Shown here piece by piece: positions 10,314 to 11,920 of a stretch of DNA of 64,000 nt. The position numbers were made by a program, and so were the translations under genes. The stretch's first letter is position 1; each line of letters begins with the position of its first letter. The notes under the pieces are model-generated. The model saw only the letters and a program-made list of their open reading frames with translations, had not been told where the DNA came from and searched no databases. Source of the DNA: Alteripontixanthobacter maritimus (GTDB lineage Bacteria > Pseudomonadota > Alphaproteobacteria > Sphingomonadales > Sphingomonadaceae); assembly GCF_003340475.1 (NCBI RefSeq), contig NZ_QBKA01000002.1, positions 1,063,501-1,127,500 of the forward strand. The letters run 5' to 3'.

Positions 10314-11156
10314 ATGGAAACCCGCTCCTTTCTTGGTCGGCTTGGCCATGAGGTCGGGGAAGCACTGACGCCGGCGGTGGACCTTGCATTTCCGCCGCGT
10401 TGCGCGCTTTGTGGTGACGCCATTGCGGCGCAGACCGGGCTGTGTATCGACTGTTGGGCAACGCTGGCTGTACCGGGCGAGCCATCTTGCCGATTATGTC
10501 AGCGACCGCTCGCGACAGGGCCCCTCGACGGCGAGCCGGTTTGCGCTCCATGCTTGGCCGATGCGCCGCGCCATAACGGCATTGCGGCGGCGACGTTGTA
10601 TAACGAATCGTCCCGGCAGCTGGTTTTGTCGTTCAAGCATGGCCGACGCCTTGGCCTCGCCCCGGTGTTGGCCAGGCTGATGGCGGCACGGCTACCCACG
10701 CTGGAGGGGAACTGGATATTAATCCCGGTTCCGCTTCATCGGCTGCGTTTGTGGAAACGCGGGTACAATCAGGCTGTGCTCCTCGCCAGCGGCATAGCCC
10801 GGTTGCGCGGACTGCCATTGCTGCGCGAAGGCTTGATCCGAAGGAAATCGACGCCATCACTGGGCGGGTTGGGCAAGCGTGCCCGAGCAAAAGTTCTGAC
10901 GGGCGCACTTGCCGTAAACAAGCATCATTCAGAAACGATTAGGGGTGCCAATATCATACTTGTCGATGACGTGCTGACTTCAGGCGCTACATCGGATGCG
11001 TGTATCAAGGCATTGAAAAAAGCCGGAGCGAACAAAATAATGGTGTCATGCTTCGCCCGTGTCATGGACGAGGCGCTGGATAATGCGCACCACGCAGCAC
11101 CCAATACGGACTTACTCCTGAATTCGGACACCGCATACGAAAACGCCCGGGGCTGA
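10314..11156 (+). CDS. comF: ComF family phosphoribosyltransferase-like protein
   Basis: A 280-residue ComF-type protein. The N-terminus carries a double zinc-binding unit (CALCGD, CIDCWA, CRLCQR, CAPCLAD at about residues 30-82), and the C-terminal type I phosphoribosyltransferase domain has the PRPP loop IILVDDVLTSGAT. ComF proteins function in natural DNA uptake in some bacteria; elsewhere their enzymatic role is unproven. The last codons run into a GC-rich hairpin, with the TGA stop inside the hairpin loop (11154-11156). The tail beyond about residue 245 (MDEALDNAHHAAPN) is longer and less conserved than usual. Confidence 0.93.
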   Translation: METRSFLGRLGHEVGEALTPAVDLAFPPRCALCGDAIAAQTGLCIDCWATLAVPGEPSCRLCQRPLATGPLDGEPVCAPCLADAPRHNGIAAATLYNESSRQLVLSFKHGRRLGLAPVLARLMAARLPTLEGNWILIPVPLHRLRLWKRGYNQAVLLASGIARLRGLPLLREGLIRRKSTPSLGGLGKRARAKVLTGALAVNKHHSETIRGANIILVDDVLTSGATSDACIKALKKAGANKIMVSCFARVMDEALDNAHHAAPNTDLLLNSDTAYENARG

Positions 11157-11167
11157 AACCCCGGGCG
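11140..11167 (-). terminator. Intrinsic terminator on the minus strand, with no minus-strand ORF upstream
   Basis: A perfect 9-bp GC stem (CGCCCGGGG/CCCCGGGCG, 11144-11152 and 11159-11167) with a 6-nt loop. Read on the minus strand it is followed directly by UUUU (11143-11140). On the plus strand no T-run follows, so it serves transcripts moving leftwards. The stem overlaps the comF stop codon. Confidence 0.75.
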
Positions 11168-11407
11168 CCGCGTGACGAAAATCGCTGGGCCACAGTGGCG
11201 GTTGCATCGGATCCCCGTTGCCGGTTCTCCTCACGCCAGTCCCCCAACCGGCAAGTGCAATTGGTCCGCGCAGGCCCAATCCTCATCGTGCAAAGGGCGC
11301 GCACCATCAACGGTGGTGTTGCGGCAACCCTCTCCCCGAACCCCGGCATGCTTCCGATGCGGGTATTCGATAACCGCGTCATTCCACCACCAGACATATT
11401 GTGAAAG
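11140..11407 (-). ncRNA. Candidate structured non-coding RNA in the comF-hisI gap
   Basis: This 356-nt gene-free stretch (11157-11512) shows strong long-range complementarity. Plus-strand segments CTGG (11185), GCGGTT (11198), GCATCGGA (11204) and CCGGTTC (11221) pair in order with CCAG (11390), AACCGC (11372), TCCGATGC (11353) and GAACC-CCGG (11338), closing a long imperfect stem. Inside are further minus-strand hairpins such as CACCA/TGGTG and ATTGG/CCAAT. A minus-strand terminator closes the unit, and a TATGAT -10-like box lies at 11414-11419, predicting a transcript near 11407. I could not match it to 6S, tmRNA, RNase P or SRP RNA. Strand and boundaries are inferred. Confidence 0.5.
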
Positions 11408-11512
11408 AGCGCAATCATACTGGCCTGTATTTTGCGCCGGAAATGTTGTTATCGTGCAACAAGCACGTTTCGTCCCCCAACCGGCCCCTCCCTCAAGCTT
11501 TTCGAGCAACCC

Positions 11513-11920
11513 ATGTCCAACACGAAAACGCCAATCTCAGCCGGCCCTTCAGACCTCGCCGTAAACGAGCGCGAGCAGGGCAGGTCGTTCCAGCCGAAAT
11601 TCGATGCAGCGGGGTTATTGACTGCCGTGGTGATCGAAGAGTCTACTGGTCGGATTCTGATGGTAGCCTTCATGGACCGTGAAGCTCTGGACCGCACTAT
11701 TGCGTCAGGCAAAGCGCATTTTCATTCCCGATCGCGGGGCAAACTATGGATGAAGGGAGAGACATCCGGCAACACCCTCACCGTAATAGATATACTGGTC
11801 GATTGCGATCAGGACGCTCTCGTTCTGCTAGTAAGCGCTGTTGGACCGGCCTGTCACACGGGCGCGGCAAGTTGCTTCTACCGCCGAATGGATGACGGAC
11901 GACTGGCTCCCGTTACTTGA
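11513..11920 (+). CDS. hisI: Phosphoribosyl-AMP cyclohydrolase
   Basis: A 135-residue HisI, the zinc-dependent enzyme that opens the adenine ring of phosphoribosyl-AMP in histidine biosynthesis. Signatures are MVAFMDREAL, HFHSRSRGKLWMKGETSGN, VDCDQDAL (metal-binding aspartates and cysteine) and GPACHTGAASCFYR. No HisE domain is fused, as usual in alphaproteobacteria. The start MSNTKTP at 11513 is used; the longer in-frame extension would reach into the RNA-like region and shows no family sequence. It stands alone, away from other his genes in this window. Confidence 0.95.
   Translation: MSNTKTPISAGPSDLAVNEREQGRSFQPKFDAAGLLTAVVIEESTGRILMVAFMDREALDRTIASGKAHFHSRSRGKLWMKGETSGNTLTVIDILVDCDQDALVLLVSAVGPACHTGAASCFYRRMDDGRLAPVT

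Follow-up and report, generated by a model that had tools for sequence, protein, structure and literature searches.

The small folded RNA encoded between comF and hisI in Alteripontixanthobacter maritimus may be compared with several described systems. Of about the same size, 6S RNA (RF00013) is likewise a structured, free-standing regulatory RNA, but it forms a rod with a central bubble, whereas the RNA of the comF-hisI gap is predicted to form a row of hairpins. An identity with 6S RNA was rejected: its model has no match in the window (the whole 64,000-nucleotide stretch of DNA analysed here), and the 6S RNA of this genome is located elsewhere (G000:C2:910708-910893; L001), with a score of 51.8 bits (cut-off 46.4). 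A score this near the cut-off suggests that the 6S RNA of sphingomonads may only just be caught by Rfam. CrfA of Caulobacter captures the sRNA alphaR8, also named SisA (PMC12559287). The likeness to CrfA is that of an alphaproteobacterial intergenic sRNA with a G/A-rich loop that can face the C-rich core of alphaR8, with Hfq present (PMC12559287), but the covariance models R1 and R2 described below detected no homology to CrfA among 385 genomes of the class, and the alphaR8 match seen here is not conserved family-wide. CcnA exposes a CCCC motif and pairs with GGGG of the ctrA and gcrA leaders (PMC8959179); it too is an ncRNA from the Alphaproteobacteria whose loop exposes a homopolymer, but the loops of the present RNA are G-rich and thus of opposite polarity. 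Closer in taxonomy are the experimentally detected Zms sRNAs of Zymomonas mobilis (PMC6970203, PMC7064620), which share with this RNA a sphingomonad origin, and a Zymomonas-like group of genomes (G023/G109/G170/G216) carries a copy of the RNA between proS and pyrG (L081). Zms4 and Zms6 are ~280-300 nt long, whereas the Zymomonas-like proS-pyrG homologue comprises ~150 nt; the homologue may correspond to another Zms RNA.

At the gathering score of Rfam 15, the window yielded a tRNA alone, and permissive E-values returned nothing relevant. The copies of the RNA at L003, L007, L022, L067, L068, L071, L078 and L081, drawn from both genomic contexts, were equally devoid of a match to Rfam 15. This covariance check had been proposed in a preliminary description of the locus, and its outcome agrees with the possible new structured RNA suggested there. 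A search of literature available without subscription did not find a description of the RNA. The family is specific to the Sphingomonadaceae (in the GTDB sense), is absent from Rfam and would represent a new family of bacterial small regulatory RNA. Judged from sequence comparison, the comF-hisI gap almost certainly holds a minus-strand gene for a small folded RNA of ~240 bases that is conserved across most Sphingomonadaceae.

Distribution and genomic addresses of the RNA gene

The case for an RNA gene from the window alone would be weak, with a single-sequence fold that is unremarkable (z = -1.2; 21 of 200 shuffles as stable), and it is the relatives that decide. A blastn search with the gap sequence returned short conserved blocks in 48 of 150 family genomes, and these matches cluster in two blocks, one at an upstream box and the other at the 3' end, ~250-330 nt apart; the genus-level search covered the window's own genome alone. 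The loci that were fetched, window included, are flanked by comF and hisI in 29 of 30 cases. The alignment of these relatives keeps the order of the elements, with insertions and deletions placed between them. A pattern scan of genome contigs in another collection gave, among the matches listed, mostly chance occurrences, but also named carriers in Qipengyuania, Croceibacterium, Erythrobacter and Novosphingobium.

The covariance model R1 represents the 3' domain (114 positions) and was trained with the window kept out. It matches the window at 11292-11131 with 68.9 bits, and finds 191 of 250 family genomes, belonging to 77 of 96 genera (E <= 0.01). Its weaker matches fall at a second site, on the antisense strand in the proS-pyrG interval or next to proS with no pyrG in the fetched stretch. 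These proS-pyrG or proS-adjoining copies occur in other Sphingomonadaceae (L028, L067-L081) and share the motifs GGUUCgGGG and GGGGG, the segment UCGUCACG (invariant in all 10 copies of alignment A3, the proS-pyrG set) and the terminator. A second model, R2, was built from ten copies unmatched to comF-hisI, mostly those between proS and pyrG. R2 matches the window end to end at 11461-11128, box included, with 35.8 bits and E = 7.9e-10, and this is the single match both in the window and in its genome. Since a model trained on the proS-pyrG copies recovers the window RNA over its entire length, the two sets are concluded to represent a single RNA gene that can occupy either of two addresses, which in turn implies that the role of the RNA is tied to neither neighbour.

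Within the family, R2 matches 210 of 250 genomes, nearly always once, with a few of these matches being terminator pieces alone. Matches of the terminator type alone, or extra matches limited to the terminator, were seen in G019, G106, G048, G072 and others. Among the 385 genomes of the class outside the Sphingomonadaceae, the matches of R1 and R2 were weak with none convincing at full length, and those of R2 mostly cover model positions 210-242, which correspond to the terminator.

Conserved hairpins, terminator and strand

The gap between the comF stop and the hisI start spans 356 nt (11157-11512, with hisI starting at 11513). Read 5' to 3' on the minus strand, the elements are the box, CAAAATAC, a promoter-like stretch, the hairpin P2, a G-rich segment, GATGAGGATTGGGCC, P5a, GGCCCAGCG, TTTTCGTCACG and the terminator hairpin with its UUUU (Table 1). 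The 5' end of the gene was placed from the predicted promoter. The P2 of the window is imperfect, being built of 4 bp, a mismatch and 3 bp, and it lies ~7 nt nearer the box than in the relatives, so that the exact 5' end of the window RNA is uncertain by ~6 nt.

Table 1. Elements of the RNA gene and its upstream region, in window positions, listed 5' to 3' along the minus strand
Feature	Position	Strand	Basis or remark
Upstream box TTGTTGCACGATAACAACA (family TTGTTGCAcGATAACcACA)	11444..11462	-	Near-invariant in alignment; putative activator site
CAAAATAC, conserved CAAAATC block	11427..11434	-	~10 nt past box; alignment
Putative promoter, TTTCAC (11406-11401), 17 nt, AATGAC (11383-11378)	11378..11406	-	Comparison with relatives and proS-pyrG copies
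RNA gene	11137..11377	-	Predicted transcript of ~235-240 nt, from P2 (start near 11377-11371) to terminator U run
P2 hairpin, GCGGTTATCGAATACCCGC	11359..11377	-	In relatives, 7-bp stem and 4-nt loop
G-rich segment GGGGTTCGGGGAGAGGG (family GGUUCAGGGGG)	11328..11344	-	3' side of P3 and next unpaired stretch; alignment
GATGAGGATTGGGCC	11273..11287	-	Counterpart of conserved AUGAGGGAU and P5 5' strand; alignment A1, R1 match
P5a stem TTGCCGGTT/AACCGGCAA, 9 bp, loop containing GGGGG	11218..11254	-	
GGCCCAGCG, P5 3' strand	11183..11191	-	Pairs with TTGGGCC at 11273-11279
TTTTCGTCACG, invariant UUCGUCACG segment before terminator	11171..11181	-	Alignments
Intrinsic terminator hairpin and UUUU	11140..11167	-	Sequence, pair counts

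Across the relatives, 94% of the P2 cells are paired and all 7 of its pairs change on both sides. The alignment holds 64 two-sided cells compared to 15 in shuffles, and a covariation score of 0.888 compared to 0.309, although the P2 hairpins in this alignment (A4) were chosen by folding and these counts lean towards structure. For this reason P2 was retested at a fixed position without picking, where at least 6 of the 7 pairs form in 44 of 60 relatives, as opposed to 8.7% of shuffles. The non-Watson-Crick cells of P2 comprise 51 G.U and 6 A.C, an asymmetry that identifies the minus-strand RNA as the folding molecule. Further downstream, P5 encloses P5a, and all 6 of the P5 pairs change on both sides in the relatives; taken with the terminator, P5 presents 41 two-sided cells compared to 13.8 in shuffles. 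The G run of P5a is framed by a helix of 6 bp or more in 45 of 60 relatives versus ~12% of shuffles, and the loop of P5a is enlarged in the window.

The RNA is predicted to end at a minus-strand terminator of the form CGCCCGGGG-UUUCAG-CCCCGGGCG-UUUU, confirming the perfect 9-bp hairpin with U4 reported earlier, and both the hairpin and its U run are conserved in the relatives. The terminator overlaps the final codons and stop of comF (the stop ends at 11156), and the plus strand has no U run. Just before it, all 26 sequences of alignment A1 carry the UUCGUCACG segment unchanged. In one clade, which includes L003, L004, L005, L006, L015, L017 and L035, a possible pseudoknot would join the P2 loop (UGACG) to an invariant CGUCA near the 3' end; such pairing of at least 5 nt occurs in 10 of 39 sequences compared to 1.7 expected. 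In the proS-pyrG copies, UGACGA instead pairs locally with UCGUCA.

The preliminary description had folded this stretch by way of four complementary segments into a long closing stem, and had named compensatory changes among relatives as a check. The segments are present in the sequence, but their significance was not confirmed. The longest of them (GCATCGGA at 11360-11353 with TCCGATGC at 11211-11204) is an 8-bp pairing, and when the 268 nt are shuffled with dinucleotides preserved, 24% of the shuffles contain a helix of 8 bp or more with a span of 100 nt or more, placing the stem at the level of chance. The segments also overlap the position of P2, which pairs locally in the relatives. The long closing stem was rejected as a conserved fold on both grounds, and compensatory changes were found in P2 and P5. 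The conserved shape predicted from the alignments is a row of local hairpins and not a rod. The broader proposal of a structured ncRNA on the minus strand stands, supported by the compensatory changes in relatives, the G.U asymmetry and the intrinsic terminator. From these comparisons, the existence of the RNA gene and its strand are well supported.

Upstream box and proposed mode of action

The core of the upstream box, TGTTGC-N8-CACA, is of the form TGT-N12-ACA and is common to the comF-hisI and proS-pyrG contexts. Among 8 genomes, matches to the box with 0-1 mismatch are located only at the RNA gene, with one other site bearing 2 mismatches, and this near-unique placement suggests that the box is a dedicated activator site. 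The TGT-N12-ACA arrangement resembles the PpsR/CrtJ consensus. The box was not assigned to these regulators, as it is also found in the Zymomonas-like genome group. The putative promoter that follows is a weak assignment inferred from comparison: the proS-pyrG copies carry an invariant TGACA with a near-invariant TA ~17 nt downstream, and a scan for consensus promoters did not list the putative promoter in the window.

Arguments for a free-standing RNA acting in trans come from its terminator, from the conservation of the box and from the change of neighbours. The favoured reading, with a probability of roughly 0.6, is a free-standing trans-acting sRNA with its own regulated promoter and G-rich seeds, probably assisted by Hfq; that it regulates by base pairing in trans has a slightly better than even chance of being correct. 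A protein bound to the TGT-N12-ACA box would control a sigma-70-type promoter ~40 nt downstream, giving rise to a transcript of ~160-250 nt that would end at the terminator and may load on Hfq through its U-rich 3' end. The G-rich unpaired segments, namely AGGGGG, AUGAGGGAU and the GGGGG loop of P5a, would then pair in trans with C-rich stretches of other RNAs. As the unpaired conserved letters of the RNA are G-rich, its partners should be C-rich. The usual targets of sRNAs are Shine-Dalgarno sequences, with which G-rich seeds cannot pair. The duplex energy with the anti-Shine-Dalgarno sequence was no better than that with scrambled sequences, and a duplex calculation with the whole molecule, which ignored internal structure, was uninformative. 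In 5 of 5 genomes tested, a single open frame of ~170-218 aa encodes Hfq with two Sm domains (tandem Hfq); that of the window's genome is encoded at G000:C2:1143049-1143474. Tandem Hfq is known for Zymomonas.

Alternative readings

In a narrower form of action in trans, the RNA would be a sponge of alphaR8 (suhB/MmgR/SisA) and a counterpart of CrfA, with its G-rich loops capturing the C-rich core GGC-AUCCUCUCCCAA. The potential partner is encoded in the window's genome (G000:C2:2175439-2175517) and in 27 of 30 genomes searched. The window offers GGGAGAGGGU, which would form 10 bp with the alphaR8 core when G.U pairs are counted, as well as the segment GGGAGAGG, complementary to CCUCUCCC of alphaR8. 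The complementarity extends to 13 bp with the core in L025, and in L027 to a perfect 15 bp through TTGGGAGAGGATGCC. The L027 sequence is the complement of the alphaR8 core GGCAUCCUCUCCCAA and lies within the G-rich segment that follows P3, where the window reaches 8-10 bp. The capture of SisA by CrfA provides a precedent (PMC12559287), and in an initial test the mean duplex energy with the alphaR8 core was below that of all 60 scrambled cores. However, the region is G-rich in any case, the complementarity displays no family-wide excess over dinucleotide shuffles and the signal is lost as the core window is shifted. Given the outcome of these finer tests, the alphaR8 sponge is kept as a minority hypothesis and is unlikely as a general explanation; it would fit a few lineages only, the window genome (L002) among them, together with L025 and L027. 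Marginally less probable is a more ambitious proposal, in which the RNA would be a family-wide single-copy hub with a dedicated activator site that counters C-rich sRNAs such as alphaR8 in the manner of a sponge, employs the tandem-domain Hfq and arose independently of CrfA.

The G-rich loops might alternatively serve to bind a protein. Several similar G-rich unpaired motifs are present per molecule in both genomic contexts, as would suit an RNA that sequesters an RNA-binding protein on repeated loops, in the way that CsrB and RsmZ act on CsrA. However, CsrA (PF02599) is absent from 20 of 20 genomes searched, the window's included, which excludes titration of the CsrB/RsmZ type, and with no other protein nominated, protein titration is a somewhat poorer prospect than the alphaR8 sponge. 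Far more improbable is a cis-acting element, be it a hisI leader or attenuator or, for comF, a terminator or long 3' UTR. The location of the RNA between these two genes in one clade would accommodate such an element, but the U run of the terminator and the G.U pairs both belong to the strand that does not encode comF and hisI, and at the other address of this RNA, beside proS and pyrG, neither hisI nor comF is found in the flanks fetched. Least probable of all is a small protein gene in place of the RNA: contrary to the earlier statement that no minus-strand ORF lies upstream of the terminator, mechanical ORFs do cross the region on that strand (11062-11418, 118 aa; 11231-11509, 92 aa), but the absence of coding constraint that this statement implied is borne out by the relatives, where ~1.4 stops occur in each of the three frames, an equal frequency that makes coding unlikely, where all frames are interrupted in 25 of 60 and where the changes preserve base pairs.

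The favoured reading of a free-standing sRNA concerns a group of bacteria that matter for pollutant degradation, aerobic phototrophy and ethanol production. Most sphingomonad genomes carry roughly one copy of the RNA, which is backed by strong comparative evidence yet has no match in Rfam 15. It also provides an example of an RNA gene whose genomic address has changed while its upstream box and terminator were kept. The alignments and covariance models can be used at once on existing RNA-seq data, and, as a potential regulator across the family, the gene is a clear choice for knock-out.
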